Origin: a bacterium
GTDB lineage: Bacteria; Bacillota; Sulfobacillia; UBA995
Assembly (NCBI GenBank): GCA_031082145.1
Contig: JAVHLP010000014.1
Location: forward strand, 1-43,882
Reading direction: 5' to 3'
Length of the DNA stretch: 43,882 nt
Below the pieces are notes generated by a model. It saw nothing but the letters and a program-made list of their open reading frames with translations, made no database searches and had not been told where the DNA came from. Position numbers and translations under genes: made by a program. Shown piece after piece: positions 2,901 to 24,212 of this stretch; position 1 is the first letter of the stretch, and every line of letters starts with the position of its first letter.

Positions 2901-3812
2901 TTGGCCGGTGGCGGCGAAGAGGAGGTAGAGCGGTTGGCGTACAGCCTGGAGTGGCTGCGTTCCGCCTTTGAGAAGGACGGCTACATAGCCGGGGAGGAGA
3001 CCCTGGTTTCCGTGTACCTGTCGCTCCGGCTCGGTAAGCCCCTCCTCGTCGAAGGTCCTCCCGGGGTGGGCAAGACCGAGCTGGCGAAGGTGCTGGCACG
3101 CAGCCTGGACACGGAGCTGATCCGGCTGCAGTGCTACGAGGGGCTCGATGAGAACAAGGCCCTCTACGAATGGAACTACCAGCGGCAATTGCTACGGATT
3201 CAGCTGGCCCGGACCGGGGGAGAAGGCGAACAGGATCTCTTCGCCGAGGAATTCCTGCTGGAGAGGCCTCTCCTGCGGGCCATCCGGGCTGAGAGGAAAC
3301 CCGTCCTCCTGGTCGACGAGGTGGACAAGACCGACGAGGAGTTCGAGGCGTTCCTCTTCGAAGTCCTCTCTGACTTCACCGTCTCCGTGCCGGAACTGGG
3401 CACCCTGCGGGCCCGGCAGATACCGGTGGTGGTGCTGACCAGCAACAACGAGCGGGAACTGTCCGACGGGCTGCGGCGCCGGTGCATCTACCTGTATATC
3501 GACTTTCCCACGGTGGAGAAGGAGGTCCGCATCATCCGGTCCCGGGCCCCGGAGGTTGCCGAGGAACTCGGCCGGGAGATCGCCCAGACCGTCCACTACT
3601 TGCGATCCCAACTGGAGGTAACCCGGAGACCTTCCATCGCCGAGACCCTGGACTGGGCCAGGGCCTTGGTGGCGCTGGACGTGGACCGGCTCAGCGACGA
3701 ACACCTCGGCCGGACGGCCAACCTGCTGCTGAAAAGCCGCGACGACCTGGAACTGCTGCGGCAGGAGATCGGGGCCCGCGGTATCCTGGGAAAGGCTCGC
3801 GGTGATGCGTGA
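2901..3812 (+). CDS. MoxR-family AAA+ ATPase
   Basis: The TTG start at 2901 is supported by GGGAGGAGG at 2884-2892. The 303-residue protein has Walker A GPPGVGKT (residues 52-59), Walker B LLVDEVD (about 136-142), sensor 1 TSNN (about 180-183) and an Arg-rich stretch after it (LRRRC). These are the hallmarks of MoxR-type AAA+ ATPases. Family members work with VWA-domain proteins as chaperones that remodel or insert cofactors into metalloenzymes. Its stop overlaps the start of a VWA (CoxE-like) gene, the classic partner. The pair sits immediately upstream of DUF3786 and the CODH/ACS operon, so a role in assembling these nickel/iron-sulfur enzymes is plausible, but that is inference from position only. 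Confidence 0.9.
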   Translation: MAGGGEEEVERLAYSLEWLRSAFEKDGYIAGEETLVSVYLSLRLGKPLLVEGPPGVGKTELAKVLARSLDTELIRLQCYEGLDENKALYEWNYQRQLLRIQLARTGGEGEQDLFAEEFLLERPLLRAIRAERKPVLLVDEVDKTDEEFEAFLFEVLSDFTVSVPELGTLRARQIPVVVLTSNNERELSDGLRRRCIYLYIDFPTVEKEVRIIRSRAPEVAEELGREIAQTVHYLRSQLEVTRRPSIAETLDWARALVALDVDRLSDEHLGRTANLLLKSRDDLELLRQEIGARGILGKARGDA

Positions 3813-5163
3813 GCCGCCCGGCCTCCGGCGGGGTCTGGCCGAGGCCGCCCTGACCCCAGGGCCCGAGAGGGTCGAGTGGAACCTGGCGCGCTTTGCCCAC
3901 CTCCTGCGGATGGCGGGCCTGCGTGTTTCGTCGGCCGAAGTCCTGGACGCGGCGAAGGCCTTGTGCCTCGTCGGAGTAGCCCATCGGGATCGGGTGAAGG
4001 CGTCCCTGAGGGCCACCCTGATCAAGAGCGGCCAGGATGTGCCCTTGTTCGAACGGGCCTTTGACCTCTACTTCGTGCCGGTGGAGGACAAGCGGGCCCG
4101 GGCCGAGTTCTACCGTCGCCAGCGGGAGGAGCAGGCCCGGCGGCGGCGCCGGGCCGGGCAGGAACTCGTCTTCCAGACCCAGCCGCTTGATCTTAGGCCG
4201 GAACAGCTAGACGTCTACCTGCGGTTGGGCGAGGAAGGCCAGCGGCGCCTGCGGGATTTCCTTGACCAGAGTTCGTCTGGAGCCCTCGTGGAGGCCCGGC
4301 ACCGCTCGCTCGTTGAGAATATCGTCCGGGGTCACCTGGATCGCCACCGGCGCGAGACGGGCGCCCCGACCGGCGACGAAGAGTTGGACGCCCTGGCCGA
4401 CGAGGTGCGGGTGGAATCCGAGGCCGATCCCCTGCTTTACCAGGATCTTCAGGGGCTGGAGGGACCGGAGTTGGACCGGGCAGTCGCCCTGGTCCGGCGC
4501 CTGGCGCGGAGGCTGGCTACCCGCATCTCCCGCCGCTACCGGCTGACCCGGTCGGGAACCCAGGTGGATTTCAGGCGGACGATCCGCCGCAACATCCGCT
4601 TCGGGGGGATCCCGCTGCGACTGGCCCACCGGCGGCGCCGCGTCAAGCGCCCGCGCCTGGTGTTGGTGGCCGATGTGTCGGGCTCCATGGCCCGGTACTC
4701 CCGCTTCGTGCTGCAGTTCCTGTACGGGCTGGCGAGCGTGGTCGCCTGCATAGAGAGCTTCGCCTTTTCGGAGCGGCTGGAGCGGCTCACCCCCCACTTC
4801 GCCCGGGGACGCCCCTTCGCCAGGACCATGGCCGCCGTCATGGGACAGAGCCAGATCTGGGGTGGGGGGACCGATCTGGCGGCGGCCCTGGAGACCCTTG
4901 AGACCAGGTACGCCGGCAAGCTCACCCCGGACAGCGTCCTGGTGGTGGTCAGCGACACCAAGACCGTGCACCCCCAGGCGGCAGCCGCCCTCCTTGACCG
5001 CGTTGGCCGGCGGGTCAAGGATGTGCTGTGGCTGAACACCTTACCGCGAGCGGAGTGGCGGGAACTGGCTTCGGTCCGGGCCTTCCAGGCCTGCGCGCGG
5101 ATGTACGAGTGCAACACCCTGGCCCACCTCGAGCAGGTGATAACCAGGCAGATGCTAAGCTGA
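3805..5163 (+). CDS. VWA domain protein, CoxE-like, partner of MoxR ATPase
   Basis: ATG 3805 (with GTG 3802 just before it) overlaps the stop of the MoxR gene. The 452-residue product has a long basic, helical N-terminal part rich in Arg and Glu. The C-terminal von Willebrand A domain carries a complete MIDAS: DVSGS (Asp290, Ser292, Ser294), GGGTD, and VVVSDTKT. This matches the CoxE family, which pairs with MoxR-type ATPases; in aerobic CO dehydrogenase systems CoxD/CoxE take part in active-site maturation. The pairing is clear from sequence and overlap. Which client it serves here is not shown; the CODH/ACS genes 770 bases downstream are an attractive candidate. Confidence 0.88.
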   Translation: MREPPGLRRGLAEAALTPGPERVEWNLARFAHLLRMAGLRVSSAEVLDAAKALCLVGVAHRDRVKASLRATLIKSGQDVPLFERAFDLYFVPVEDKRARAEFYRRQREEQARRRRRAGQELVFQTQPLDLRPEQLDVYLRLGEEGQRRLRDFLDQSSSGALVEARHRSLVENIVRGHLDRHRRETGAPTGDEELDALADEVRVESEADPLLYQDLQGLEGPELDRAVALVRRLARRLATRISRRYRLTRSGTQVDFRRTIRRNIRFGGIPLRLAHRRRRVKRPRLVLVADVSGSMARYSRFVLQFLYGLASVVACIESFAFSERLERLTPHFARGRPFARTMAAVMGQSQIWGGGTDLAAALETLETRYAGKLTPDSVLVVVSDTKTVHPQAAAALLDRVGRRVKDVLWLNTLPRAEWRELASVRAFQACARMYECNTLAHLEQVITRQMLS

Positions 5164-5240
5164 CTATTTGTTTGAAGCGGCGTTCCAGGAGGAGTTTCAC
5201 TTCTAGCCCGAAAAGTAGAGGGGCTGGAGGGATGCCAGGC

Positions 5241-5855
5241 GTGGAGGAGCGGCGCCGGGAGACCTACGCGGTCGCGCTCGAGCAGGCTCGCCGGGACTTC
5301 GCAGCACGCGATCCGGACCGGGCCGCCCGTGAGGCCGGCGGAAGCCGGGAAGGCTCGGCCATCATCCTGAGACACTTCAACACCCTCTACGTGGTGGACC
5401 ATCCCTCGGGCCGGGTGTGCCCGCGGGCCAACCCCGGGCAGCAAGCCGGGGAGGTAACCCGCTTGCTCGTCTTGCACTACCTGATCACGACCCGGGGAGC
5501 GGAGCCGCGGGGCAGGTGGATCTCCTTCCGCGAGGTTCCCGGCGGGGATGTGTATTTGCCCGCCTTCAACCGGCGATCGGTTGCTTGGCTGGTCCGGCGG
5601 TTCGGTGAGGACCCTGCCGGCCTCGTGGAGGCCGGGGTCCGGCTGGGCGGGCAACCGGCGGGGATCGGCGACGCCGCGATCACCCTGCACGCCTTCCCCC
5701 TGGTACCGGTTACCCTGGTGCTGTGGCGGGGGGACGACGAGATCCCCACCGCCGGCAACGTGCTTTTTGATGAGACGGCGCCGCTGCACTTGCCTACCGA
5801 GGACCTTGCCGTGGTGGCCGGCGAGACAATGGCCGTCCTGAGTAGGAAGAGTTAA
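5241..5855 (+). CDS. DUF3786 family protein
   Basis: This is a soluble protein of about 204 residues, recognised from the family pattern WISFREVPGG, then YLPAFNRRS, then FG, then FPLVPVTLVLWRGDDEIP, then LFDETA and LPTEDLAVV. The start is uncertain: GTG 5241 lies 10 bases after GGAGG (5226-5230), while the in-frame ATG 5232 is only one base from it. Upstream in-frame codons back to 5028 overlap the VWA gene and are rejected. DUF3786 proteins occur mainly in anaerobes with CODH/ACS or corrinoid chemistry, but no biochemical function is established that I know of. The position between MoxR-VWA and cooC suggests a maturation or accessory role. Confidence 0.8.
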   Translation: MEERRRETYAVALEQARRDFAARDPDRAAREAGGSREGSAIILRHFNTLYVVDHPSGRVCPRANPGQQAGEVTRLLVLHYLITTRGAEPRGRWISFREVPGGDVYLPAFNRRSVAWLVRRFGEDPAGLVEAGVRLGGQPAGIGDAAITLHAFPLVPVTLVLWRGDDEIPTAGNVLFDETAPLHLPTEDLAVVAGETMAVLSRKS

Positions 5856-5930: not shown

Positions 5931-6704
5931 GTGAAGATAGCCATCGCCGGTAAAGGCGGGGTTGGCAAGACAACCCTGGCCGCCGGGTTTTGCGTGTTTC
6001 TGGCCCGCCGGGGCTACCAGGTCTACGCGGTTGACGCCGATCCCGACGTAAGCCTGGGAGTTGCCCTGGGCTTTCCGTCCTGGTTGCTGGATAGCTTGCA
6101 GCCTCTCATCGAGATGAAAGACCTGGTCGAGGAGAGGACTGGCGGCGGCGCCTACTTGGTCCTCAACCCGCAAGTGGACGACCTGGTGGCGCGCTACGCG
6201 TGCCGCCACGAGAACATAAGCTTGCTCCGAATGGGAGGGATCAAGCCGGGAGGCAGCGAGTGCTACTGCAAGGAATCCAGTTTCCTGCGGGCCGTGCTGG
6301 GATCCCTGCTCTTGGGGGAGGAGGACGTGGTGGTCCTCGACATGGGGGCGGGGATTGAGGGGCTGACCCGGGGCACCGCCAGGGGTGTGGATCTCCTGGT
6401 CGTGGTCGCCGAACCGACGCCCGTCAGCTTCCGAACGGCGCGGGTGATCACCAGTCTGGCCGGCGATCTGGGCATTGCCCGGATCGGGGCCGTCGTCAAC
6501 AAGGTGCGCAACCAGGCTGAGCGAGACTTCATCGCCGCCTCCGGTGAAGGTCTCCAAGTCCTGGGTTGTCTCAGTTACGATGAGGAGGTGCTCGACCGGG
6601 CCCTGGCCGGGGGGGACGGACCGCCGGCAGTTCTGGCCGGGCGGCTCTACGCCGACCTGGAGGGAGTCGGGGCGCGGATTCTCAAGCTGGCAGAAGGAGG
6701 TTAG
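5931..6704 (+). CDS. cooC: CooC-type nickel-insertion ATPase for CO dehydrogenase
   Basis: GTG 5931 follows AAGGAG. The 257-residue protein is a MinD/SIMIBI-class ATPase with a deviant Walker A GKGGVGKTT (residues 7-15), the DADPD loop (about 35-39) and a switch II DMGAG. The CxC pair Cys111-Cys113 is the metal-binding motif of CooC at the dimer interface. CooC proteins load nickel into the C-cluster of carbon monoxide dehydrogenase at the cost of ATP. It lies four bases upstream of the CODH catalytic gene and a second paralogue (acsF) lies further down, so this copy is probably dedicated to AcsA. It is the first gene of the operon. Confidence 0.92.
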   Translation: MKIAIAGKGGVGKTTLAAGFCVFLARRGYQVYAVDADPDVSLGVALGFPSWLLDSLQPLIEMKDLVEERTGGGAYLVLNPQVDDLVARYACRHENISLLRMGGIKPGGSECYCKESSFLRAVLGSLLLGEEDVVVLDMGAGIEGLTRGTARGVDLLVVVAEPTPVSFRTARVITSLAGDLGIARIGAVVNKVRNQAERDFIAASGEGLQVLGCLSYDEEVLDRALAGGDGPPAVLAGRLYADLEGVGARILKLAEGG

Positions 6705-6707
6705 ACG

Positions 6708-8741
6708 ATGTCACCCAGGCACCGGAACACGTCCCTGGGTTTCGCGGCTACGGCCAAGCAGCCGGGCGCCAAGCCGCGACGGGACGCCGACGCCCGGCGG
6801 ACGCAAGACCCCGCCGCCTGCGAACTCCTGGAAGAGGCCCAGGCCAGGGGCATTACCACGGCCTTTGACCGTTTCATCGCCCAGCAGCCGCAGTGCGGGT
6901 TCGGGCTCGACGGCGTGTGCTGCCGGGTTTGCCTGCAGGGGCCCTGCCGGATCAACCCCCGGAAGGCGGGCATGGAGAAGGGCATCTGTGGCGCCCAGGA
7001 CTACACGGTCGTGGCCCGCAACCTGGCCCGGGCGATCGCCGGCGGGACCGCCTGTCACTCCGACCACGGCCGTCACATCGCCAAGGTCCTCCTGCACGTG
7101 GCCGAGGGTGAGATAGGCGAGGAGAACTACCGCGTAAGCGACCCCGAGAAGCTACGGCGAATCGCCACCCGGATCGGCCTGGAGACCGAGGGCGTGGCAG
7201 TGGCCGATCTGGCACGGCGGGTGGCCCTGGCGGCCCTGGCCGACTACGGGCGTCACACCGACGAGACCTGCACCTGGCTGACCACCACCATCACACCCGG
7301 CCGACAGACCAAGTTCAAGCACTGCGCGATTGCCCCCACGGCCATTGACCGGTCGATAACCGACATCATCACCCAGACCGCCATGGGGATGGACGCCGAC
7401 CCGGTCAACATCATCTTCGGCGGCCTGAAGACGGCCCTGTCCGACTACACCGGCATGCACCTCTCCACCGACCTCTCCGACGTCCTCTTCGGTACCCCCA
7501 CCCCGGTCCTGTCGCAAGCCAATCTAGGGGTCATCGACCCCGCCTACGTCAACATCGCCACCCACGGCCACAACCCAACCCTGTCCAGCCTGGTGGTGGA
7601 CGCCGCCCAGGAACTGGCCGGAGAGGCCCGGCAAGCGGGAGCCAAGGGCGTGAACGTGGTGGGCATCTGTTGCACCGGCAACGAGTTGCTGATGCGTGAC
7701 GGGGTGTACCTGGCCTCGAACGTGGCAGGCCAGGAACTGGCGATCATGACCGGGGCCCTGGACGCCATGATCGTCGACATCCAGTGCATCATGCCCTCGG
7801 TCCGAGCCGTCGCCGAATGCTATCACACCGCCGTTATAGCCACCAACCCGCTGGTGAAGATCCCCGGCGCCCACCACGTCGACTTCCGCGAGGAGACGGC
7901 CCTGGCGACGGCCAAGGAGATGGTGCGGCTGGCCATACGCAGTTACGGCAAGCGGGATCCCGCCAAGCTGCGCGTCAGCGAGCACAAGCAGGACGTCGTC
8001 GCCGGCTGGAGCTTGGAGGCGTTGTTTGAGCTCCTGGGCCGGATCGACGCCGACCACCCGGCCAGAGTGCTCACCGATGCCATCCTGGAAGGCGAGATCC
8101 GGGGCGTGGCCCTGTTCGCCGGCTGCAACAACCTGAAGGTCAATCATGACCAATCCCACCTGGCCATCCTGAAGGGTCTGCTGGCCAACGACGTGTTCGT
8201 GGTCGCCACCGGGTGCTCGGCCGGTGCCGCCGCCAAGGCGGGGCTGATGGCTCCCGGGTCTTACGAGGAGTATGGCGGCGAGGGGCTCAAGAAGTTCCTG
8301 GCCCGGCTCAGCCAGGCCGGTGCCACCCGCCACGGGCTGCCGGCCGTGTTCCACCTGGGTTCCTGCGTGGACAATACCCGGGCGGCGGACCTCTGGACGG
8401 CGATGGCCCGCGAACTCGACGTGGACGTGCCCAAGGTGCCTTTCGTGGCCAGCGCGCCCGAGGCCATGCACGAGAAAGCAGTGTCCATCGGGTCCTGGGT
8501 GGTGGCGATGGGCATTCCCACCCACGTGGGGATCATGCCGCAGATCGAGGGCTCCGAGTTGGTCTACGGTGTCGGCACCCAGATCGCCCACGACGTCTAT
8601 GGCGGCTACTTCATCCTGGATCCCAATCCCACCACCGCGGTGGAGCGGCTGTTGGACGCCTTGGAGTACCGGGTTTGGAAGCTGAGAGTGCACCGCAAGG
8701 CGGCTGACCGCTTTGGCGCCGCGCTGACCGCAGGTTACTGA
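6708..8741 (+). CDS. acsA: CO dehydrogenase catalytic subunit (CODH/ACS beta)
   Basis: This is a full-length 677-residue Ni,Fe-CODH interconverting CO2 and CO with ferredoxin. Cys63 and Cys71 fit the D-cluster and Cys72, Cys75, Cys80, Cys94 the B-cluster; the spacing equals that of the structurally known Carboxydothermus enzyme. The C-cluster ligands are also in place: His288 in ATHGHNP, then Cys322 (GICCTGNELLMR), Cys360, Cys473 (AGCNN), Cys503 (ATGCSAG) and Cys553 (LGSCVDN). It starts at ATG 6708, four bases after cooC, with GGAGG just upstream. Directly followed by acsB, so it is the CODH half of the bifunctional CODH/ACS rather than a stand-alone CooS. Confidence 0.97.
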   Translation: MSPRHRNTSLGFAATAKQPGAKPRRDADARRTQDPAACELLEEAQARGITTAFDRFIAQQPQCGFGLDGVCCRVCLQGPCRINPRKAGMEKGICGAQDYTVVARNLARAIAGGTACHSDHGRHIAKVLLHVAEGEIGEENYRVSDPEKLRRIATRIGLETEGVAVADLARRVALAALADYGRHTDETCTWLTTTITPGRQTKFKHCAIAPTAIDRSITDIITQTAMGMDADPVNIIFGGLKTALSDYTGMHLSTDLSDVLFGTPTPVLSQANLGVIDPAYVNIATHGHNPTLSSLVVDAAQELAGEARQAGAKGVNVVGICCTGNELLMRDGVYLASNVAGQELAIMTGALDAMIVDIQCIMPSVRAVAECYHTAVIATNPLVKIPGAHHVDFREETALATAKEMVRLAIRSYGKRDPAKLRVSEHKQDVVAGWSLEALFELLGRIDADHPARVLTDAILEGEIRGVALFAGCNNLKVNHDQSHLAILKGLLANDVFVVATGCSAGAAAKAGLMAPGSYEEYGGEGLKKFLARLSQAGATRHGLPAVFHLGSCVDNTRAADLWTAMARELDVDVPKVPFVASAPEAMHEKAVSIGSWVVAMGIPTHVGIMPQIEGSELVYGVGTQIAHDVYGGYFILDPNPTTAVERLLDALEYRVWKLRVHRKAADRFGAALTAGY

Positions 8742-8761: not shown

Positions 8762-10948
8762 GTGCCTGTCACGCTTGAGGAGTTCGAGAGGATATACGAG
8801 GGAGCCGTCGAGGACGGGCAAGCCCCCCGGGGCCTGTTCAAGCAGGCGTACGACGGTGCGGTCATCGCCACCAGCTACGCCGAGATCCTTCTTCACCAGG
8901 CCCTGCGGGTACACGGCCCGGATGCCCCGCTGGCTTATCCCGACACCGCGTACTTCCTGCCGGTCATAACCGCGCTCAGCGGGGAGAAGGTCACGAAGGT
9001 GGGCGAGTTGCCGCAAATCCTCAACCGTCTGCGGAGCCAGATCCGCGAGGAACTCACCTTCGAGAACGCCCGCCGGTGCGGGGAGGCAACCCTGTACGCG
9101 GCGGAGATCATCGAAGCCCTGCGTTACCTGGAGGGCATAGGAGAGCATCCCGAGCCCTGGACCGGCTTTCTGTCCGACCCGGTGGTTCGCCGGTATGGCA
9201 TCAAGCTGGTGGACTGGACCATCCCCGGACAGGCGGTGCTCTTGGGACGCGCGCGCAGCTCGAAGGACGCCGCCAAGCTGGTGGCCGAGTTGATGGGCTA
9301 CGGGTTCATGATCTTCGCTTCCGACGAGATCATTGAGCAGTTGATTGAGGAAGACGTCAAACTCGGGATCGACTATATCGCTTTCCCGTTGGGGAGCTTC
9401 ACCCAGGTCATCCACGCCGTCAACTACGCCCTGAGAGCCGGGCTGGCCTTCGGCGGTATCCCCCCCGGGCAGCGCGAGGAGGCGCGAGACTACCAGCGTC
9501 GCCGGGTGCGGGCCTTCGTCCTGCACCTGGGGGAGATCGACGAGGTCAAGGTCGCCGCTCATTTCGGGGCCATCTTCCTTGGCTTTCCCGTCATCACCGA
9601 CCAGGAGGTACCCGAGCAGCTCAAGGACTGGTGGGTCTCCCACCCCAACTACGAAGACCTGGTGGCCTTCGCCATGGAACTCCGGGGCATCAAGCTCACC
9701 GGGGCCAAGGTCGACATCCCGCTCAACTTCGGTCCCGCCTTCGAGGGCGAGACCATCCGCAAGGACGATGTCCACGTGGAGATGGGGGGCGGCCGGTCGG
9801 TGGCTTTCGAACTCGCCCGGATGGTGGGCCCGGACGACATCAAGGACGGGCACATTGAAGTCCACGGGCCGGACATCGACCAGTTCAAGGAGGGCGATCG
9901 GGTTCCCCTGGGCGTTGTCGTGGAGATATACGGCCGTAAGATGCAGGAGGACTTCGAGGGGGTACTGGAGCGGCGCATCCACTACTTCATGAACTACGCC
10001 GAGGGACTCTGGCACGTGGCCCAGCGCGATCTATGCTGGCTCCGGGTGTCCAAGGAGGCATTCCGCAAGGGGTTCCGCTTCCAGCACTTCGGCAAGCTGC
10101 TCATCGCCAAGTTCAAGGATGAGTTCCCGGCCATCGTGGACCGGGTGCAGGTGAAGATCTACACCGAAGAGGAGACGGTCAGGGCACTGCTCAAGGAGGC
10201 CCGGTCCAAGTACCACGCCCGGGACGAGCGCATGCGCGGGCTGACCGACGAGGCGATCCAGGAGTTCTACTCCTGCCTGCTCTGCCAGTCCTTCGCCCCC
10301 AACCACGTATGCGTCATCACGCCCGAGCGGGTGGGGCTGTGCGGGGCCGTGACCTGGTTGGACGGCAAGGCCTCGTTTGAGATCAACCCCACCGGTCCCA
10401 ACCGTCCCATCCCCAAGGGCCCAGCGACCGACGAGGTCAAGGGCATGTGGCCGGCGGTAAACGAGGCGATCCGGGTTTCCAGCAACGGCAACCTGGAGGA
10501 GGTCAACCTGTACACGCTGATGGACCGGCCGATGACCTCTTGTGGCTGTTTCGAGGCGATCATGGCCATCCTGCCGGAAGCCAACGGGATCATGATCACC
10601 ACCCGCGAGCACAAGGGGAGCACGCCGGTGGGCATGACCTTCTCCACCCTGGCCGGCATGGTCGGCGGCGGGGTGCAGACCCCCGGCTTCATGGGCATCG
10701 GGCGTTCGTACCTGACGAGCCGGAAGTTCATCACCGCCGACGGCGGGCTGGCCCGGGTGGTCTGGATGCCCCGCGAGTTGAAGGAGTTCCTGGGCCAGGA
10801 CCTCGTGGACCGGGCCAGGGAGCTTGGGCTGGGTGACGACTTCGTGGACAAGATCGCCGATGAGACGATCGGCGCCACCGTGGAGGAAATCCTGCCCTTC
10901 CTCGAGGAGCGAGGGCACCCCGCCTTCGCCTTGCCGTCCCTCATCTAA
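8762..10948 (+). CDS. acsB: Acetyl-CoA synthase subunit (CODH/ACS alpha)
   Basis: This is a 728-residue bacterial-type acetyl-CoA synthase, nearly the same length as the Moorella enzyme and with the N-terminal CODH-binding region that archaeal CdhC lacks. It condenses CO, the methyl group from the corrinoid protein, and CoA. A-cluster ligands are visible: Cys505, Cys508, Cys517, Cys527 in SCLLCQSF...VCV...GLCGAV, and the CGC motif Cys594-Gly-Cys596 that binds the distal nickel. The GTG start at 8762 is preceded by GGAGGGGAGGAG. It sits between acsA and acsC as in Moorella-type operons. No missing active-site residue. Confidence 0.97.
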   Translation: MPVTLEEFERIYEGAVEDGQAPRGLFKQAYDGAVIATSYAEILLHQALRVHGPDAPLAYPDTAYFLPVITALSGEKVTKVGELPQILNRLRSQIREELTFENARRCGEATLYAAEIIEALRYLEGIGEHPEPWTGFLSDPVVRRYGIKLVDWTIPGQAVLLGRARSSKDAAKLVAELMGYGFMIFASDEIIEQLIEEDVKLGIDYIAFPLGSFTQVIHAVNYALRAGLAFGGIPPGQREEARDYQRRRVRAFVLHLGEIDEVKVAAHFGAIFLGFPVITDQEVPEQLKDWWVSHPNYEDLVAFAMELRGIKLTGAKVDIPLNFGPAFEGETIRKDDVHVEMGGGRSVAFELARMVGPDDIKDGHIEVHGPDIDQFKEGDRVPLGVVVEIYGRKMQEDFEGVLERRIHYFMNYAEGLWHVAQRDLCWLRVSKEAFRKGFRFQHFGKLLIAKFKDEFPAIVDRVQVKIYTEEETVRALLKEARSKYHARDERMRGLTDEAIQEFYSCLLCQSFAPNHVCVITPERVGLCGAVTWLDGKASFEINPTGPNRPIPKGPATDEVKGMWPAVNEAIRVSSNGNLEEVNLYTLMDRPMTSCGCFEAIMAILPEANGIMITTREHKGSTPVGMTFSTLAGMVGGGVQTPGFMGIGRSYLTSRKFITADGGLARVVWMPRELKEFLGQDLVDRARELGLGDDFVDKIADETIGATVEEILPFLEERGHPAFALPSLI

Positions 10949-12323: not shown

Positions 12324-14225
12324 ATGAGTAACTGCACCGTCTTGTTCCAACCGGACGGGCGGAAGGTGAGGGTGGCGGCCGGGACTGATCTGCGCCGGGC
12401 CGCCGCCCTGGCCGGCATTGAGCTGAAGAGCGCCTGTGGTGGCGAGGGCACCTGCGGCAGTTGCGTCGTGAAGGTCCTCCGGGGGCGGTACGCCATCCTG
12501 GGAGGGAAGTCCCGCCAGAAGCAGGGGCTGGTCTTGGCTTGCCGTACGGCGGTCCTGGGCGATCTTGAGGTCGAGGTGCCGGCCTTATCCCGGCTCGAGG
12601 AACACCGAGTGCTACTTGAGGAACTGGCCGCCAACGCGACGCTGGCCGAGAGGGAGTTCGACTCGCTGGAGCGGCACGGCTTCCACCCCGTTGTGCACAA
12701 GACCCTGGCGGTGCTGGACCCGCCCACCCTGACCGAGAATGCGTCCGACCTCACGCGCCTGCTCACCCGCTTCCGTCCGGAGGACGGACGGCCGACGCCC
12801 GCCATCGGTCTCCGAGCCATGCGCCAGCTCCCCCTGGCCGTGCGCGAGGGCGGCTGGCGGGTCACGGCGACCGTGGCCGACGTGGGCGGGAAGGAGGAGA
12901 TCCTGCGACTGGAACCGGGATCGAGCCGCCGGCCCGCTTACGGTCTGGCCATCGATATTGGCACCACCTCCTGCGTCGTGAACCTGGTCGACATGCGGAG
13001 CGGCCTGGTGATTGACCGCCGGGGCGCCTTCAACCGCCAGGCCCGGTACGGCGACGACGTCATCACCCGTATCATCCACGCCACCGAGCAGCCCGAGGGG
13101 TTGCAGCAGTTGAACCGGGCGGTCCTCGACACCCTGAACGACCTGGTGGACCGGCTGCTTCTGGCCAACGATCTCCGGGCCGACGACCTGACTGTCGCCA
13201 AGGTGGCAGGCAACACCACCATGGCCCACCTGTTCCTCTCCGTCCCGCCCGACCACATCCGGCGGGAACCGTACATACCTGCCGCAGTCTCCTTCCCCGT
13301 GTTGCGCGCGGGCGAGTTGGGTCTCACCATGAACAAGGCCGCCCCCGTCTTCACTTTCCCGGCTGTGGCCAGCTATGTCGGGGGCGACATCGTGGCCGGC
13401 GTCCTGGTAACCGGCATGGCCCAGGGCGAAGAGGTGACCCTCTTCATCGATATCGGGACCAACGGCGAGATAGTCCTGGGCAACCGGGACTGGCTGGTGG
13501 CTTGCGCCTGTTCGGCGGGCCCCTGTTTCGAAGGGGGGGGCATCACCTGCGGTATGCGGGCCACCCCGGGAGCCGTGGAGCGCATCGAGGTGGAACCGGG
13601 TGGCCGGGAAGTCCGCGTGCGGACCGTGGGGGGCCTGCCCCCCGCCGGCATCTGCGGGTCGGGGCTGGTTGATGCCATGGCCGCTCTGTACGAGGCTCAG
13701 GTCATCGACCGGGTGGGCAACTTCCGTGATCTTGATAGCCCCCGGTTACGCGGGGGCCCCGACGGTCCCGAGTTCGTGCTCGCCGAAGGCCCCGAGCGGG
13801 AGATTGTCCTCACCGGAGCCGACCTCAAGAACTTGATCCGGGCCAAGGGCGCCGTCTACGCGGGCATTCGCTCGCTGCTGGCCGCCGTCCAGCTGCCGGA
13901 AGACGCCATCGCGCGCGTGTTCGTCGCCGGGGGCTTTGGCAACTACCTGAACCTTCGCGACGCCGTCCGGGTGGGGATGCTGCCCGACCTGGATCCGTCG
14001 CGTTATCATTTTGTAGGCAATAGCTCGGTCAAGGGTGCCCGGCTGGCCCTCCTGTCCCGGCGGGCCTGGGCCGAGGCCGATCGCCTGGCCCGGCAGATGA
14101 CCTACCTTGAGCTGTCGGCCAGCCGCAGCTACATGGAGGAGTTTGTCTCCGCCCTCTTCTTGCCCCACACCGATCTGAGCCTGTTCCCGTCGGTCACGGA
14201 GCAGGAGGTGAGCGCATGCCCCTGA
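12324..14225 (+). CDS. acsV: Corrinoid-activating ferredoxin/ATPase
   Basis: This 633-residue protein has an N-terminal plant-type [2Fe-2S] ferredoxin domain (Cys38, Cys44, Cys47, Cys73) and a C-terminal ASKHA ATPase fold (AIDIGTTSCVVNLVD, FIDIGTNGE, then AGGFGNYL). This is the architecture of reductive activators of corrinoid proteins: electrons from the ferredoxin cluster, driven by ATP hydrolysis, rescue inactive Co(II) to Co(I). It lies between acsC and acsF and is expected to act on AcsCD. Its 3' end overlaps acsF by 10 bases. Length and domain order are typical. Confidence 0.94.
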   Translation: MSNCTVLFQPDGRKVRVAAGTDLRRAAALAGIELKSACGGEGTCGSCVVKVLRGRYAILGGKSRQKQGLVLACRTAVLGDLEVEVPALSRLEEHRVLLEELAANATLAEREFDSLERHGFHPVVHKTLAVLDPPTLTENASDLTRLLTRFRPEDGRPTPAIGLRAMRQLPLAVREGGWRVTATVADVGGKEEILRLEPGSSRRPAYGLAIDIGTTSCVVNLVDMRSGLVIDRRGAFNRQARYGDDVITRIIHATEQPEGLQQLNRAVLDTLNDLVDRLLLANDLRADDLTVAKVAGNTTMAHLFLSVPPDHIRREPYIPAAVSFPVLRAGELGLTMNKAAPVFTFPAVASYVGGDIVAGVLVTGMAQGEEVTLFIDIGTNGEIVLGNRDWLVACACSAGPCFEGGGITCGMRATPGAVERIEVEPGGREVRVRTVGGLPPAGICGSGLVDAMAALYEAQVIDRVGNFRDLDSPRLRGGPDGPEFVLAEGPEREIVLTGADLKNLIRAKGAVYAGIRSLLAAVQLPEDAIARVFVAGGFGNYLNLRDAVRVGMLPDLDPSRYHFVGNSSVKGARLALLSRRAWAEADRLARQMTYLELSASRSYMEEFVSALFLPHTDLSLFPSVTEQEVSACP

Positions 14226-14968
14226 GACTCTCAGTGGCCGGCAAGGGTGGAACCGGTAAGACCACCGTCGTCGCGCTGATCATCAGGGCCCTGCGGGAAC
14301 GGGGCGAAGGGGCGGTGCTGGCCATCGACGCCGACCCTAACTCCAATCTGCACGAGGCCTTGGGCCTCACGGTGGAGGCAACGGTCGCCGACATCCTGGC
14401 CGAGACCAAGACGCCCGGCCCGCCCCCGGCCGGTATGACCAAGAACCTGCTGGTGGAGTACAGGCTTCGCTCGATCCTGGTGGAGAGCCCCCGGCTGGAT
14501 CTTCTCAGCATGGGCACTCCCGAGGGGCCGGGCTGCTACTGCTATCCCAATGACCTGCTCCGGTCGCACATGGATACCCTGGCCCGGGCGTATGAGTACC
14601 TGGTTGTTGACAACGAGGCGGGGCTTGAACACCTGTCTCGCCGGGTGGCCCAGGACATGGACCTGACCTTGATCGTCAGCGACGCCACGGCGCGCGGTCT
14701 GCGGACCGCCAGGCGGGTCCGTGAACTGGTGGAAGGACTGGAACTCGACCCCGGCCGGCTGTGGCTCGTGATCAACCGGCTGGCGGGTGATCCCGGCCCT
14801 CTGGCCGCCGAGATCGACGCCACCGGCCTCGAACTGGCAGGGATGGTACCCCAGGACGACATGGTGGCCGACTACGATCTCAGGGGGAAACCCCTGGCCG
14901 GACTCCCGGCATCCTCGCCGGCGGTGCGGGCGATCGCTGAGATCGCGGCCCGGGTTGGATTGACCTGA
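14216..14968 (+). CDS. acsF: CooC-family ATPase for acetyl-CoA synthase maturation
   Basis: A second SIMIBI-class ATPase of 250 residues, with Walker [10 protein letters not shown] (9-17), the DADPN loop (38-42) and the metal-binding CxC pair Cys107-Cys109 within [10 protein letters not shown]. It is paralogous to, but clearly diverged from, cooC at 5931. In Moorella-type operons the copy between acsV and acsD is the AcsF/CooC2 type associated with nickel loading of the acetyl-CoA synthase A-cluster. Assignment to ACS rather than CODH rests on position; the fold and metal motif are seen directly. The ATG at 14216 overlaps the acsV stop. Confidence 0.88.
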
Positions 14969-14987
14969 GGCGAAAGGAGACGAGTTG

Positions 14988-15953
14988 ATGCCAGTTGAGC
15001 GTGTGAAGGAGAGGTATGCCAGCAAGGTTGGCGAGGTGGTGCTGGGGGCCACCCCGGCCGAGGGAGGGACCCGTTCGCACCAGGTGAAGGTGGGTGGTGA
15101 CTCCACCCTGCCCTTCCTGCACGCGGAGGGCGTGGTCGCCAACCGCCCCGTGATCGCCATGGAGGTGCAGGACGTCATCCCGGAGTGGAACCCGGTCTTC
15201 ACCCGCCCCGTCGCCGACGTGATGGGCGACCCCGGTGCGTGGGCGCAGAAGTGCGTGGAGGCTTTCGGCGCGGACTTGATCTACCTGAGACTGGACGGGG
15301 CCAACCCGGAGAAGGGCGGCCGCAAGCCCGACCAGTGTGCCGCAACCCTCCGCCAGGTGCTCGGCGCCGTCAAGGTCCCCGTGATCGTGGTCGGTTCGGG
15401 CGTGGACGAGGCCGATGACGAGGTAATGCCGGTTGTGGCCGAGGCTGGAGCGGGTGAGAACTTGCTCCTCGGCACGGCCACCCAGGACCACTACAAGACG
15501 CTCACCGCGGCCTGCATGGTCCACAAGCACAGCATCGTCGCCCTCTCCCCGATCGACATCAATATCTGCAAGCAACTGAACATCCTCATCAGCGAGATGA
15601 ACCTGCCCCTGGAGCGGATCGTGATCGACCCCACGGTGGGGGCCCTGGGTTACGGCATCGAGTACACCTACTCGATCATGGAGCGAATCCGCCTCGGCGC
15701 CCTGAGTGGCGACCGCATGATGTCCATGCCGGTCCTGTGCACCATTGGCTACGAGGTGAACCGGGCCAAGGAGACGGCGGCCGGTGCCGCCGAATTCCCG
15801 ACCTGGGGCGAAGTCGGCGACCGGGCCGTGCTCTGGGAGGCTATGACCGCCTCCTGTTTCATGCAGGCCGGCGGGCACATATTCGTGCTCCGTCACCCGA
15901 CCTCGGTCAAACTGCTCCGGCAGCAGATCGATGCCCTCATGGCGGGCAAGTGA
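14988..15953 (+). CDS. acsD: Corrinoid iron-sulfur protein small subunit
   Basis: ATG 14988 (with TTG 14985 directly before it) follows AAAGGAGA. The 321-residue TIM-barrel protein is the AcsD/CdhD family, with no Fe-S cysteines; characteristic segments include [41 protein letters not shown] and [17 protein letters not shown]. It forms a heterodimer with AcsC and helps hold the corrinoid cofactor during methyl transfer. It lies between acsF and acsE with short spacers. No anomalies seen. Confidence 0.95.
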
Positions 15954-19333: not shown

Positions 19334-19818
19334 AGGCTGCTTCCGAGAACGCTCCCCGGGTGGTGAACCCGCGGTTCAAGTACGAGGTGGCCGCTCGCCC
19401 GGGTGGCCAGCAGATAAAGGTCTGCTTTGGCTGTGGGATATGCACCGCCGGGTGCCCGGTAGCCGAGATCGACGCGGCCTACAACCCCCGCCGGATCATC
19501 CGCCTGGTGCTGCTGGGACTGGAGGAGGAAGTGCTCACCGCGGACCTCATCTGGCTCTGCACGACCTGCTTCACCTGTTATGCCCGGTGCCCCCAGGATG
19601 TCAAGTTCACCGATGTCATGGGCGTGCTGCGGGACCTGGCGGTGGAGAAGGGGTATGTGCACCCGTCCTTCCCCGCCCGCCTGCGAGCCCTGGACGACAC
19701 CGTGCAGCGGGCTCGCCGGGATGGGGCCCGGGCCCTGGCCAGAGCCAAGGCCGAGGCCGGCGAGCCTGATGCCGGGCTGCTCAGGCGGATTCTGGCCGCG
19801 GCGGGGGAGGACTCATGA
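19330..19818 (+). CDS. hdrC: Heterodisulfide reductase subunit C-like [4Fe-4S] protein
   Basis: A 162-residue protein with two classic [4Fe-4S] motifs: Cys32, Cys35, Cys38, Cys42 (CFGCGICTAGCP) and Cys77, Cys80, Cys83, Cys87 (CTTCFTCYARCP). This is the HdrC pattern. In methanogens HdrC links HdrA to the catalytic HdrB; here no HdrB (CCG-domain protein) is encoded anywhere in the cluster. The C-terminal 50 residues are Ala/Arg-rich and probably helical. It overlaps the 129-residue MvhD-like gene and the large HdrA fusion by ATGA at either end, so co-translation is likely. Its electron acceptor may be MetVF instead of HdrB. Confidence 0.9.
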   Translation: MKAASENAPRVVNPRFKYEVAARPGGQQIKVCFGCGICTAGCPVAEIDAAYNPRRIIRLVLLGLEEEVLTADLIWLCTTCFTCYARCPQDVKFTDVMGVLRDLAVEKGYVHPSFPARLRALDDTVQRARRDGARALARAKAEAGEPDAGLLRRILAAAGEDS

Positions 19819-22800
19819 GCGAGAAGGTGACCGGCGCCGCGCTGGTGGTGGGAGGCGGCATCGCCGGCATGCAAGCCGCCTTGGACTTGGCTGAGTCCGG
19901 TTTCTACGTGTACCTGGTGGAGAAGTCGCCCTCCATCGGGGGTACCATGGCCCGCCTGGACAAGACTTTTCCCACCAACGACTGTGCCATGTGCATCCTG
20001 TCGCCCAAGCTGGTAGAGTGCGGGCGACACCTCAACATTGAGACCCTGACCGGCGCCGAGGTCGTTGACGTGACCGGTCGGCCGGGCGCTTTCAAGGTCG
20101 TGGTCCGACGGCATCCCCGATACATCGATGTCGCCAAGTGCACCGGGTGCGGCGACTGCGAGAAGGAGTGTCCGGTCCGGAAGCCAAACGAGTACGAAGG
20201 CGGCCTCAGCCTGCGAAAGGCTGTTTTCCGGCCCTTTCCCCAGGCCTACCCCAACGCCTTTGCCATTGAGAAGGCCGAGCGGCCCATGTGCCAGGTATCC
20301 TGCCCGGCGGGAGTGCACGCCCAGGGTTACGTGGCTCTGGTGGCGGAGGGCAAGTTCAAGGAAGCCGTTGCCCTGGTCCGCCGGCACAACCCGCTGCCCG
20401 CCGTCTGCGGGCGGGTGTGCCATCATCCTTGCGAGGCGGCTTGCCGGCGGGGACTAGTGGACGAGGCGGTAGCCATCCGCCCCCTCAAGCGATTCATCGC
20501 CGATTACGAGCACGAGCAGGGGGGCGAGCCGCTCACGGTGGTGACGACCGAACCCCGCCCGGAGCGGGTGGCGGTGGTGGGTTCCGGCCCGGCCGGGATC
20601 ACCGCAGCTCATTACCTGGCCCTGGACGGTTTCAAGGTGACCGTCTTCGAGTCCCTGCCGGTGGCCGGCGGCATGCTGGCGGTCGGCATTCCCGACTACC
20701 GGCTGCCCCGCGACATCCTGACAACCGAGATCGGCCAGGTTGAGGCGATGGGAGTGGAGATCCGGACCGGCACTGCCCTGGGCCGGGACTTCAGCCTGGA
20801 CGACCTGAAGGCCAGGGGATACGCGGCGGTGTTCCTGGCCGTTGGGGCTCACCTGGATCAGAAGCTAGACCTCCCCGGCGAGGACATCCCGGGCGTGGTC
20901 TCCGGGGTCGAGTTCCTGCGCCACCTCAACCTCGACCAGGAGGTTCGGGTGGGACAGCGGGTGCTCGTGATCGGCGGCGGCAACGTGGCCATCGACGCTG
21001 CCCGCAGTTGTCTCCGGCGGGGAGCGGCGGCGGTCACCGTGGTCTACCGGCGTTCCCGGGGTGAGATGCCGGCCGCGCCGCACGAGGTGACGGCCGCCGA
21101 GGAGGAGGGCATCGGGTTCGAGTTTCTAACCGCCCCCACCGCCGTGCGGGGCCAGGGCAGGGTGGAAGGACTCCGATGCCTGCGTATGCAGTTGGGCGAG
21201 GCCGACGCTTCCGGCCGGCGCCGGCCGCTGCCGGTACCCGGGTCCGACTTTACCCTGGAGGCAGATCAGGTGATCGTGGCCGTCGGCCAGTCCGCCGACA
21301 CTTCGTTCGCCGGCGAGGAACTGGTTGACCGGTGGGGCAACCTGGCCGCCGACGCCGGCACGCTGGCCACGGCACTCCCCGGCGTCTTCGCGGGGGGCGA
21401 CGCGGTGACCGGACCGGCCACGGTGGTGGAAGCCATCGCCGCCGGTCGCCAGGCGGCCGTCTCCATCCGACGCTACCTGGACGGCCAGGACCTGGCGGGA
21501 GGCGTCGTCGCCCGGCCCGCCCCGGTGGTGGGCCCGGTTCGCTGGGACGCGCCGCGGCTGCCCCGGGCCACCATGAGGGAACTCGAGCCCGGTGAGCGGC
21601 GCCGGGACTTCCGGGAGGTCGAGCTCGGACTCGACCAGCAGGAGGCGATGGCCGAGGCCGGTCGTTGCCTCGACTGCGGCGTCTGCGCGGAGTGCCTGGA
21701 GTGCGAGCGCGTCTGCCGGGCGGGGGCGGTCGTCCACGACATGCAGGAGGAGACGGTTGAGCTGGAGGTTGGGGCGGTCGTGCTCTGTCCCGGTTTTGCC
21801 GCCACCGAGTCACAACACATGACCCACCTCGGCTATGGGCGATTCGCCAACGTGGTGACGTCGGTGGAGTTTGAGCGCATACTCTCCGCCTCCGGTCCTT
21901 TCGAAGGCCATGTCGTGCGCCCGTCCGACCGCCAGACCCCGAAGCGGATAGCCTTCCTGCAGTGCGTGGGATCCCGCGACGTTCGCAACGGCGAGGGTTA
22001 CTGCTCCTCGGTCTGCTGCATGTACGCGCTCAAAGAAGCGGTCATCGCCAAGGAACACTCCAGCGAGGAACTGGACATCAGCATCTTATACATGGACATG
22101 CGGGCCCACGGCAAGGACTTCGAGCACTACCTGAACCGGGCCCAGCAGGAGTACGGCGTACGGCTGGTGCGGGGCAAGGTGGAGGCGGTTGAGCCCGGCT
22201 CCACCCCCGGCGGCCTCACCGTGCGCTACGCGGCCGAGGACGGACCGGCCCGCCGGGAGGAGTTCGACCTGGTGGTGCTCTCGGTCGGCATGCGGCCGCA
22301 GCCGGAAGTCGTCGACCTCGCCCGCCGGCTGGGCATCAGCACCGACGAGCATGGGTTCCCCCGGGCGGTGCCGGGACAACCCACTCGCACCTCGCTACCG
22401 GGGATCCTGGTGGCCGGTCCCTTCGCCGCCCCCAAGGACATCCCCGAGACGGTGGTGGAGGCCAGCGCGGCGGCGGCCGAGGCGGGTACGGTGCTGGCCC
22501 CGGCCCGCGGCGAACTGGTGCGCGGCAAGGAATATCCTCCCGAACGCCCGGTGGCCAACCGCGCGCCCCGCATAGGTGTCTTCGTGTGCCACTGCGGCAT
22601 CAACATCGGCGGCGTGGTGCGGGTCAAGGAAGTGGTGGAATACGCCCGGGGGCTGCCCGGCGTCGTCCACGCCGAGGACAACCTGTACACCTGCTCCCAG
22701 GACACGCAGGACCACATGAAGGAGTTGATCCGCGAGCACGACCTCAACCGGGTCGTGGTGGCCTCCTGTTCACCGCGCACCCATGAACCCCTGTTCCAGC

Positions 22801-24212
22801 AGACCATCCGGGAGGGGGGCCTGAACCCCTATCTCTTCGAGATGGCCAACATCCGCGACCAGTGCTCCTGGGTCCACATGCAGCGGCCGGACGAGGCCAC
22901 CGCCAAGTCCCGTGACCTGGTGGCCATGGCCGTGGCCAAGGCCCGCCACCTCGAGCCCTTGTACCGGGTACCGGTGCCGGTGACGCCGGGCGCGCTGGTC
23001 ATCGGCGGCGGCATGGCCGGCCTGACCGCCGCCCTGGGCTTCGCCCGCCAGGGTTTCCCCGCCTGCCTGGTGGAGCGGGATGCCGAGCTGGGCGGGCAGG
23101 CCCGGCGGCTGCGGACAACCCTCGAGGGCGAGAACGTGCCGGCCCTGATGGCGGCAGCGGCCGCCGAGGCCCGGAGCCACCGCCTGATCACCATTCATAC
23201 CGGTTCCGAAGTGCGTTCGGTGGAGGGCTTTGTCGGCAACTTCGAGAGTCACATCACCACCCCCGGGGGTGAGGTCACCCTCAAGCACGGGGTGGTGGTG
23301 GTGGCGACCGGCGCCGGCCCGGCCGTCCCTGCGGGTTTCGGTTACGGCGAGGACGCCCGGGTCATGACCCAGCTCGAGCTGGAGGAGTCGCTGGACCGAA
23401 TACCTCCCGGCGATGTCGTCATGATCGGCTGCGCCGGCTCGCGCGAGACGGGCCGCCCTTACTGCAGCCGGATCTGCTGCTCGCACATGGTCAAGAACGC
23501 CCTGGCCCTCCGCCGGGCCTATCCCGACCGCGAGGTCTACGTGCTCTACCGCGACATGCGAACCTACGGCCTCAAGGAAGATCACTACCGGGAAGCCCGG
23601 GCGGCGGGCGTCACCTTCCTGCGTTACCGCGCCGAGCAGCCACCCGCCGTGACCGGGTCGGGCGGGCAGCTCCAAGTGGAGGTGTTCGACGAGACGCTGG
23701 GCGACACGGTGGCGATCCCGGCCGGGGTGGTGGCCCTGGCCACTGGCGTACAACCCCCCGATGACGCGCGCGTGCTGGCCCAGACGCTCAAAGTACCCCT
23801 CAACGCCGACGGTTTCTTCCTGGAGGCCCACGTGAAGCTGCGGCCGGTGGACTTCGCCACCGACGGTGTGTTCGTGGCCGGCCTGGCCCACGCCCCCAAG
23901 AGCCTGGCCGAGAGCGTGGCCCAGGCTCAGGCGGCGGTCGGCCGGGCGGTCACCGTGGTCGCCCGTGATTCCATTGAGGCCGGCGGGGTTGTGGCCGAAG
24001 TCCGGGAGGGCCGCTGCAGCGGCTGCCGTACCTGTGAGAGTGTCTGCCAGTACCAGGCTATCAAGGTCGATCCCGCCAAGGGCAAGGCGGCGGTGGAGAA
24101 GGCGGTCTGCAAGGGTTGTGGCGCCTGCGCCGCCACCTGCTGGTGCGGGGCGATCACGCTGCGTGGCTTCACCGAGGAACAGATCCTGGCGGAGGTGGCG
24201 GCGCTTCTATGA
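19815..24212 (+). CDS. hdrA: Giant HdrA-NfnB/GltD-HdrA fusion flavoprotein
   Basis: 1465 residues, about twice a normal HdrA. Residues 1-150: HdrA-type FAD domain (GGGIAGMQAALDL, FPTNDCAMC, CTGCGDCEKECP). About 157-560: an inserted GltD/NfnB-like unit with N-terminal Fe-S cysteines (159, 163, 198, 202, 206, 210), FAD motif GSGPAG, nucleotide motif GGGNVAIDAAR and VYRRSRGEMPA, which suggests NADP(H). About 612-895: the first HdrA resumes (cysteines 618-634, QCVGSRD, YCSSVCCMYALK). 918-1390: a second HdrA with CHCG, GCAGSR and YCSRICCSHM. 1400-1446: 2x[4Fe-4S] ferredoxin. No frameshift is evident. HdrA carries the bifurcating FAD in known complexes, so this is the predicted core of a bifurcating machine with an added NADP site. 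Confidence 0.9.
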   Translation: MSEKVTGAALVVGGGIAGMQAALDLAESGFYVYLVEKSPSIGGTMARLDKTFPTNDCAMCILSPKLVECGRHLNIETLTGAEVVDVTGRPGAFKVVVRRHPRYIDVAKCTGCGDCEKECPVRKPNEYEGGLSLRKAVFRPFPQAYPNAFAIEKAERPMCQVSCPAGVHAQGYVALVAEGKFKEAVALVRRHNPLPAVCGRVCHHPCEAACRRGLVDEAVAIRPLKRFIADYEHEQGGEPLTVVTTEPRPERVAVVGSGPAGITAAHYLALDGFKVTVFESLPVAGGMLAVGIPDYRLPRDILTTEIGQVEAMGVEIRTGTALGRDFSLDDLKARGYAAVFLAVGAHLDQKLDLPGEDIPGVVSGVEFLRHLNLDQEVRVGQRVLVIGGGNVAIDAARSCLRRGAAAVTVVYRRSRGEMPAAPHEVTAAEEEGIGFEFLTAPTAVRGQGRVEGLRCLRMQLGEADASGRRRPLPVPGSDFTLEADQVIVAVGQSADTSFAGEELVDRWGNLAADAGTLATALPGVFAGGDAVTGPATVVEAIAAGRQAAVSIRRYLDGQDLAGGVVARPAPVVGPVRWDAPRLPRATMRELEPGERRRDFREVELGLDQQEAMAEAGRCLDCGVCAECLECERVCRAGAVVHDMQEETVELEVGAVVLCPGFAATESQHMTHLGYGRFANVVTSVEFERILSASGPFEGHVVRPSDRQTPKRIAFLQCVGSRDVRNGEGYCSSVCCMYALKEAVIAKEHSSEELDISILYMDMRAHGKDFEHYLNRAQQEYGVRLVRGKVEAVEPGSTPGGLTVRYAAEDGPARREEFDLVVLSVGMRPQPEVVDLARRLGISTDEHGFPRAVPGQPTRTSLPGILVAGPFAAPKDIPETVVEASAAAAEAGTVLAPARGELVRGKEYPPERPVANRAPRIGVFVCHCGINIGGVVRVKEVVEYARGLPGVVHAEDNLYTCSQDTQDHMKELIREHDLNRVVVASCSPRTHEPLFQQTIREGGLNPYLFEMANIRDQCSWVHMQRPDEATAKSRDLVAMAVAKARHLEPLYRVPVPVTPGALVIGGGMAGLTAALGFARQGFPACLVERDAELGGQARRLRTTLEGENVPALMAAAAAEARSHRLITIHTGSEVRSVEGFVGNFESHITTPGGEVTLKHGVVVVATGAGPAVPAGFGYGEDARVMTQLELEESLDRIPPGDVVMIGCAGSRETGRPYCSRICCSHMVKNALALRRAYPDREVYVLYRDMRTYGLKEDHYREARAAGVTFLRYRAEQPPAVTGSGGQLQVEVFDETLGDTVAIPAGVVALATGVQPPDDARVLAQTLKVPLNADGFFLEAHVKLRPVDFATDGVFVAGLAHAPKSLAESVAQAQAAVGRAVTVVARDSIEAGGVVAEVREGRCSGCRTCESVCQYQAIKVDPAKGKAAVEKAVCKGCGACAATCWCGAITLRGFTEEQILAEVAALL

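Follow-up and report, generated by a model that had tools for sequence, protein, structure and literature searches.

A MoxR-VWA-DUF3786 gene trio beside the nickel CO dehydrogenase/acetyl-CoA synthase operon of a Sulfobacillia bacterium, and its possible part in enzyme maturation

Genes at the locus

The stretch of DNA analysed here, referred to as the window, comprises the 43,882 nucleotides of contig JAVHLP010000014.1 (assembly GCA_031082145.1) from a bacterium of the class Sulfobacillia. It carries, on the forward strand, adjoining genes for a MoxR-type AAA+ ATPase (2901..3812, 303 amino acids), a CoxE-like VWA protein (3802..5163, 453 amino acids) and a DUF3786 protein (5232..5855, 207 amino acids), followed by the genes for a CooC-type ATPase, the nickel carbon monoxide dehydrogenase (CODH) and acetyl-CoA synthase (ACS). 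An earlier note on this DNA had placed the trio immediately 5' of cooC and CODH, and the open reading frames (ORFs) and their Pfam and NCBIfam matches agree with that description; the genes are tightly packed on one strand. The MoxR gene is preceded by 63 bp of intergenic DNA and overlaps the VWA gene by 11 bp, and spacings of 68 bp (VWA to DUF3786), 75 bp (DUF3786 to CooC1), 3 bp (CooC1 to CODH) and 20 bp (CODH to ACS) follow. Between positions 1900 and 9000, a scan detected three terminator-like sites, against 3.1 expected, and nothing resembling a sigma-70 site. Gene order from MoxR through the second CooC gene is identical in G058, a genome of the same family as the window.

The MoxR-type protein matches the Pfam AAA_5 and AAA domains (AAA_5 at 44.7 bits) and has intact Walker A (GPPGVGKT, residue 52, approximately 3054-3077) and Walker B (VLLVDEVD, residue 135) motifs, with SN and RRR in the sensor region. 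These motifs, the arginine-rich sensor region and the adjoining VWA partner gene place it among the MoxR AAA+ ATPases. The top NCBIfam model is MadB_ATPase, and the pair falls below the MadB and MadC cut-offs (269.1 versus 475 bits and 99.7 versus 600 bits). The VWA protein belongs to the CoxE-like family (VWA_CoxE, PF05762, 134.6 bits versus a cut-off of 26.4). Its metal ion-dependent adhesion site (MIDAS) is intact, with DVSGS at residue 291 (approximately 4672-4686), GTD at 356 and SD at 384, and the MIDAS residues (DxSxS, T and D) are invariant in an 18-row alignment. The N-terminal half is mostly helical and the VWA domain is C-terminal in a structural model with a mean predicted local distance difference test (pLDDT) score of 75.7. 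Foldseek rows for this model include chains 9qhg_G and 9qhe_G of the NorQD complex, with many unrelated VWA domains scoring alike, and the VWA profile gave no PDB sequence match at E 0.01.

The DUF3786 protein matches PF12654 at 163.5 bits (gathering cut-off 27) and is a member of that family; its start was taken as the ATG at 5232, and the longest ORF begins at 5028. The model has a pLDDT of 97.0. Foldseek returned nothing for it at E 0.001 or better, comparison with VIA gave a Z of at most 5.7 over 86 residues with no clear fold match, a negative that carries no weight in itself, and the profile has no PDB sequence match at E 1. In an alignment of 48 rows, a single histidine column and none of cysteine exceed 60 % conservation, and the protein is therefore not an obvious nickel carrier.

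Downstream on the same strand, CooC1 (5931..6704) has a CYC motif and matches the solved CooC 3kje (phmmer E 1.2e-61). It is followed by the catalytic subunit of Ni-CODH (6708..8741; TIGR01702 at 723.9 bits versus a cut-off of 478) and by ACS (8762..10948; PF03598 match at 9716-10180). A second CooC-type ATPase, CooC2 (14216..14968), was recognised from its CYC motif, its position in a tree and its match to CooC 3kje (phmmer E 4.8e-18); it occupies the usual place of AcsF, and by gene order it is a candidate AcsF. The flanking ORFs, both outside the scanned set, are named by operon order: 12324..14225 is presumably an AcsV-like activator, which has homologues in the acs operons of some other genomes, and 14985..15953 is presumably an AcsD-like corrinoid protein subunit, used as the marker of the operon junction in cross-genome comparison. 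The neighbouring CODH is of the nickel type, and no molybdenum CO dehydrogenase was found among the part of the window proteins that was scanned.

Distribution across genomes

Two genome collections were searched. In the class set (151 genomes) a VWA orthologue was a full-length match with at least 40 % identity, and in the phylum set (398 genomes) a VWA protein was counted at 399 bits or more; four phylum genomes with VWA matches of 200-234 bits were set aside as intermediate, and many genomes have a weaker second VWA protein. The co-occurrence counts in both sets ignore shared ancestry, as do the Fisher values calculated for the phylum set, extreme as these are.

DUF3786 was found in 31 class genomes, ACS in 30, CODH over the cut-off in 32 and the VWA orthologue in 18; 84 genomes have some VWA match at E 1e-5, in most cases confined to the VWA domain. 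All 18 genomes with the VWA orthologue have DUF3786, versus 13 of the 133 others, and MoxR adjoins VWA in every one. CODH over the cut-off is present in 16 of the 18 (G025 has contig-end pieces only and G084, 81 % complete, has none) and ACS in 15, the exceptions being G084, G019 and G017, the last with a fragment of ACS where a contig ends. DUF3786 and ACS occur together in 28 class genomes. In the phylum set VWA was found in 76 genomes, DUF3786 in 105, ACS in 112, and DUF3786 and ACS together in 93. Among the 76 VWA genomes, 74 have DUF3786 and 65 have ACS, and MoxR adjoins VWA at 75 of 80 loci. CODH over the cut-off was found in nine of the 11 VWA genomes without ACS, in eight of the 12 DUF3786 genomes without ACS, and in five of 48 genomes lacking both DUF3786 and ACS (an even draw of 44, plus four picked for weaker VWA matches). 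Two genomes of family f154 (given as 99 % complete) combine VWA and DUF3786 with several CODH matches over the cut-off, five in G406 and four in G429, and have no ACS match.

Among the best 80 loci in a scan of named genomes, 17 scored E 1e-62 or better, all from Bacillota or groups thereof, and the rest, mostly from other phyla, scored E 1e-40 or weaker (24-37 % identity in the best segment). Among these loci the Bacillota VWA proteins stand as a group apart from the others. Five of the 17 top loci overlap the class set; all 12 VWA genomes beyond it have DUF3786 and CODH over the cut-off, and at least four of the 12 recur in the phylum set. Strains of Desulfosporosinus are among the carriers of the MoxR-VWA pair and of DUF3786.

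The surroundings of all 80 VWA loci in the 76 phylum genomes were read to approximately 7 kb on each side where the contig allowed, and compared by tblastn with the window proteins. In 14 of the 76 genomes a gene related to CODH/ACS lies approximately 6 kb or less from VWA: the window, ten genomes with CooC2 (G518, G365, G389, G317, G536, G341, G171, G288, G499 and G458), G166 and G212 with CODH directly before MoxR, and G451 with DUF3786. About two genomes would be expected by chance, a rough figure rather than a test, given about five such 12-kb places in 2.9 Mb. With DUF3786 counted, CODH/ACS-related placements occur in nine of 42 VWA-holding families by hand count. In the class set the pair is also near CODH/ACS genes in G058, in G017, where it stands at the end of the acs genes, and in G028, where it is a few genes upstream of DUF3786-CooC-CODH-ACS; DUF3786 and CooC share the VWA contig in G084 and G068, with VWA approximately 12 kb and 9.5 kb from DUF3786, respectively. 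The MoxR-VWA pair is therefore mostly found away from CODH/ACS, an outcome that the earlier note had named as speaking against its own proposal, and position alone is weak evidence for a link between the two. DUF3786 is tied to CODH/ACS by position more often than MoxR-VWA is: it lies 5 kb or less from CODH or ACS in 18 of the 31 class genomes that have it, and in the other 13 there is no CODH/ACS match on that contig, with a CooC or AcsD match adjoining in some.

A recurrent arrangement joins the pair to CooC2. This ATPase, with its CxC motif, lies beside VWA or 2 kb or less away in the ten phylum genomes listed above (families f57, f115, f131 and f165) and at locus L072 of a further genome. 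In nine of the ten it is 3' of VWA and runs in the same direction, with 30-157 bp between the matched segments, as it does in L072, with approximately 210 bp; in G458 it is on the opposite strand approximately 1.7 kb from the VWA match, past MoxR and one further gene. Elsewhere CooC2 usually lies immediately before acsD. The acs operons of nine cassette genomes were fetched (G536 was left out). That of G171 is truncated where its contig stops, and CooC2 is absent before acsD in all eight readable operons; five of these (G317, G341, G288, G499 and G458) also have no AcsV match. Among 15 other operons CooC2 was found in 11 of the 13 that were readable, G376 being cut and G366 giving no match to acsD over 9 kb downstream of ACS. 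A branch with 94/96 support, recovered in 96 % of 200 bootstrap trees, separates the cassette CooC2 proteins from the others, which fits a single relocation persisting in four families and L072. The other listed members of family f115 carry the MoxR-VWA-CooC2 cassette; in G435 (L262) and G255 (L263) of that family the CODH/ACS cluster is divergent and contains two ACS genes.

Of the 33 rows from VWA genomes in a tree of 85 ACS proteins, 31 fall in a clade of 55 and the other two in a clade of 13, and a clade of 17 contains none; the tree was made by a quick method, takes in many VWA-negative genomes by choice, leaves out the too-short first copies of G435 and G255, and has ten long branches flagged as unsure. 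The two class genomes that have ACS and lack DUF3786, G076 and G092 of the window's own family (f1), also lack VWA. In both, the ACS match lies in a 399-amino-acid frame, with none in a long frame; G076 gave a weak CODH match in a 771-amino-acid frame and G092 gave none. From these frames, their CODH/ACS looks to be of the archaeal instead of the bacterial type.

Proposed role and alternative explanations

CODH/ACS forms the core of the Wood-Ljungdahl pathway, in which acetyl-CoA is made from carbon dioxide, and to our knowledge its nickel maturation is incompletely understood. The earlier note had pointed to the MoxR and CoxE-like pair that assists cofactor assembly in aerobic molybdenum CO dehydrogenase, and this is confirmed by two papers, in which CoxD and CoxE are needed for assembly of the metal cluster of the Mo-Cu enzyme (PMC4240915, PMC3471820). 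The window resembles that system in having a MoxR-type AAA+ ATPase and a CoxE-like VWA protein encoded beside a CO dehydrogenase, but differs in its putative client, which is an unrelated, anaerobic Ni-Fe-S enzyme. The NorQ/NorD system is likewise a MoxR-VWA pair serving a metalloenzyme, and differs in the client. MoxR-VWA pairs are described as metalloenzyme chaperones (PMC4240915, PMC3471820, PMC12657314), binding between MoxR and VWA proteins has been demonstrated for a mycobacterial pair (PMC12657314), and CooC delivers nickel to CODH (PMC6006190).

A literature search that covered few subscription papers found none joining MoxR-VWA or DUF3786 with Ni-CODH/ACS maturation. Searches on DUF3786 gave nothing on topic, judged by title and the start of the abstract; MoxR with acetyl-CoA synthase and CODH returned PMC4240915 only, MoxR with von Willebrand and Wood-Ljungdahl returned no paper, and MoxR with acetogen returned off-topic papers only. 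Among the matches listed, those for CooC, AcsF and MoxR included no MoxR, and those for MadB and MadC nothing useful. By term search, MoxR, DUF3786, Willebrand and AAA are absent from a 2026 study of CODH gene context (PMC13056359), and MoxR, DUF, Willebrand, AAA, hypothetical and AcsF from PMC6344411.

We propose, with about an even chance of being right, that MoxR-VWA is an accessory ATP-driven machine for the maturation or remodelling of bacterial Ni-CODH/ACS, acting with a CooC-type ATPase, and that DUF3786 is a small factor of its own within that enzyme system. The VWA protein would recruit the MoxR ring to CODH/ACS, and the ring would open or reshape the apo- or damaged enzyme, which may let a CooC-type ATPase (CooC2, AcsF-like) insert nickel or allow a dead cluster to be exchanged. 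Such a remodelling step may be useful under some conditions only. The protein interaction, CODH or ACS as the client and nickel as the cargo are all inferred from sequence and gene context. A remodelling step for nickel loading is favoured by the description of MoxR-VWA pairs as metalloenzyme chaperones. The earlier note's idea of a shared maturation theme is upheld in part: co-occurrence with DUF3786 and CODH, the CooC2 cassette and the absence of VWA and DUF3786 from G076 and G092, whose ACS looks archaeal, speak for it, and position adds little.

A more specific form, in which the AAA+ ring opens CODH/ACS, a CxC P-loop ATPase of the CooC2/AcsF type delivers nickel and DUF3786 is a further, hitherto unrecognised accessory protein of CODH/ACS of the bacterial type, is a tentative and rather doubtful proposal. 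The cassette partner CooC2 resembles the CooC and AcsF nickel ATPases in its CxC motif and is homologous to CooC; as a candidate AcsF it would insert nickel into ACS. Such proteins differ from MoxR in being P-loop ATPases of another class. If the proposed role is correct, MoxR, VWA and DUF3786 would be new parts to co-express for CODH/ACS, and the MoxR-VWA principle would reach from Mo-Cu CO dehydrogenase to an unrelated Ni-Fe-S enzyme.

Several findings weigh against an accessory role in CODH/ACS maturation. VWA, DUF3786 and CODH are all clade-linked in these genomes, and the counts take no account of phylogeny. A full-score VWA protein is absent from 47 of 112 ACS genomes (four of which have one of intermediate score), and among genomes with near-identical ACS the pair is present in G174 and G391 and absent from G257, G367, G414, G459 and G519. 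The pair is thus not essential: MoxR-VWA is dispensable, and close relatives keep ACS without it. DUF3786 is itself absent from 19 phylum-set ACS genomes. Conversely, G178 (82 % complete) and G488 (95 %) have VWA without ACS and without CODH over the cut-off, and the f154 genomes combine VWA and DUF3786 with multiple CODHs and no ACS match, which speaks against a role confined to ACS. On contigs of the phylum set that carry both VWA and ACS, the distance between them is mostly tens of kb to megabases, and the recurrent other neighbours of the pair include Fix/ETF genes, AFOR, a Fur regulator, a glycosyltransferase and others. Since one CooC2 move is enough, the eight cassette operons are not independent, and G166 and G251 have VWA and no cassette, yet also lack CooC2 before acsD. 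The absences of VWA and DUF3786 from G076 and G092 are less firm, as these genomes are incomplete (90 % and 76 %).

The neighbours just named raise the possibility that the pair serves another anaerobic enzyme, for example tungsten AFOR or a complex of the FixABCX/ETF kind, and shares only its lifestyle with CODH/ACS, which we consider unlikely. AFOR-cluster genes lie approximately 3-10 kb from the pair in G054, G057, G084, G068 and G025 (one copy was checked with Pfam), and FixABCX/ETF-like neighbours span four families, with Fix/ETF genes adjoining the pair in G067 (L052), G028 (L061) and G228 (L242) and approximately 4 kb off in G018 (L057). Of the 57 genomes searched, however, 46 contain AFOR, often in many copies, so that nearness to the pair comes cheaply, and G038 and G017 have VWA with no AFOR match, the pair in G017 being at the end of the acs genes. 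AFOR as the sole client was rejected on these two counts. No AFOR or Fix counterpart of the CooC2 move was noticed, though none was searched for.

It is quite unlikely, in our estimation, that the pair is a repair activase that frees inactive CODH/ACS and inserts no nickel, in the way proposed for CbbQ/CbbO and Rubisco. Those proteins, likened here by description, are also a MoxR and a VWA protein with a carbon-fixing enzyme as presumed client, though a different one, and according to PMC12657314 they are thought to promote structural remodelling and not metal insertion. Dispensability in near relatives would suit a repair role, but a metal step is favoured by the CooC-type ATPase, with its CxC motif, that adjoins the pair in the cassette.

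The closer tie of DUF3786 to CODH/ACS (18 of 31 class genomes, versus 14 of 76 phylum genomes for MoxR-VWA) would be expected if DUF3786 alone were the CODH/ACS factor and MoxR-VWA a chance neighbour in the window; this seems improbable, as VWA is accompanied by DUF3786 in nearly all phylum genomes that have it and the placements near CODH/ACS recur across families. MoxR-VWA pairs also occur in conflict systems, but a phage-defence or conflict system lying by chance beside the operon is scarcely credible here and was rejected, given that PADLOC (E 0.001) gave no match for VWA or DUF3786 and for MoxR short Walker-region matches only (28.3 bits or less), and that co-occurrence with CODH and DUF3786 across families speaks against it.

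Further MoxR-VWA copies and neighbouring genes

A second MoxR-VWA pair lies a few kb from the first at L165, L166, L187, L190, L192, L193, L198 and L200, and near FeoB, a Fur regulator and DUF3786 at L162, L163 and L164. The second pair differs from that of the window, the MoxR proteins being approximately 50 % and the VWA half approximately 30 % identical. Second VWA copies with no adjoining MoxR match occur in four genomes of family f86 (L226, L230, L236 and L239). A gene for a Fur-family regulator lies 0.2-3 kb from VWA at L075, L080, L085, L176, L179 and L180, and also at L079, L081 and L082; the regulator is also near FeoB and DUF3786 at L162-L164 and L168 (one Fur copy was checked with Pfam). 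In the window itself, downstream of the acs genes, positions 19815-24212 hold a single frame of 1465 amino acids, which by eye resembles a fusion of an HdrA-type flavoprotein that carries additional redox domains.

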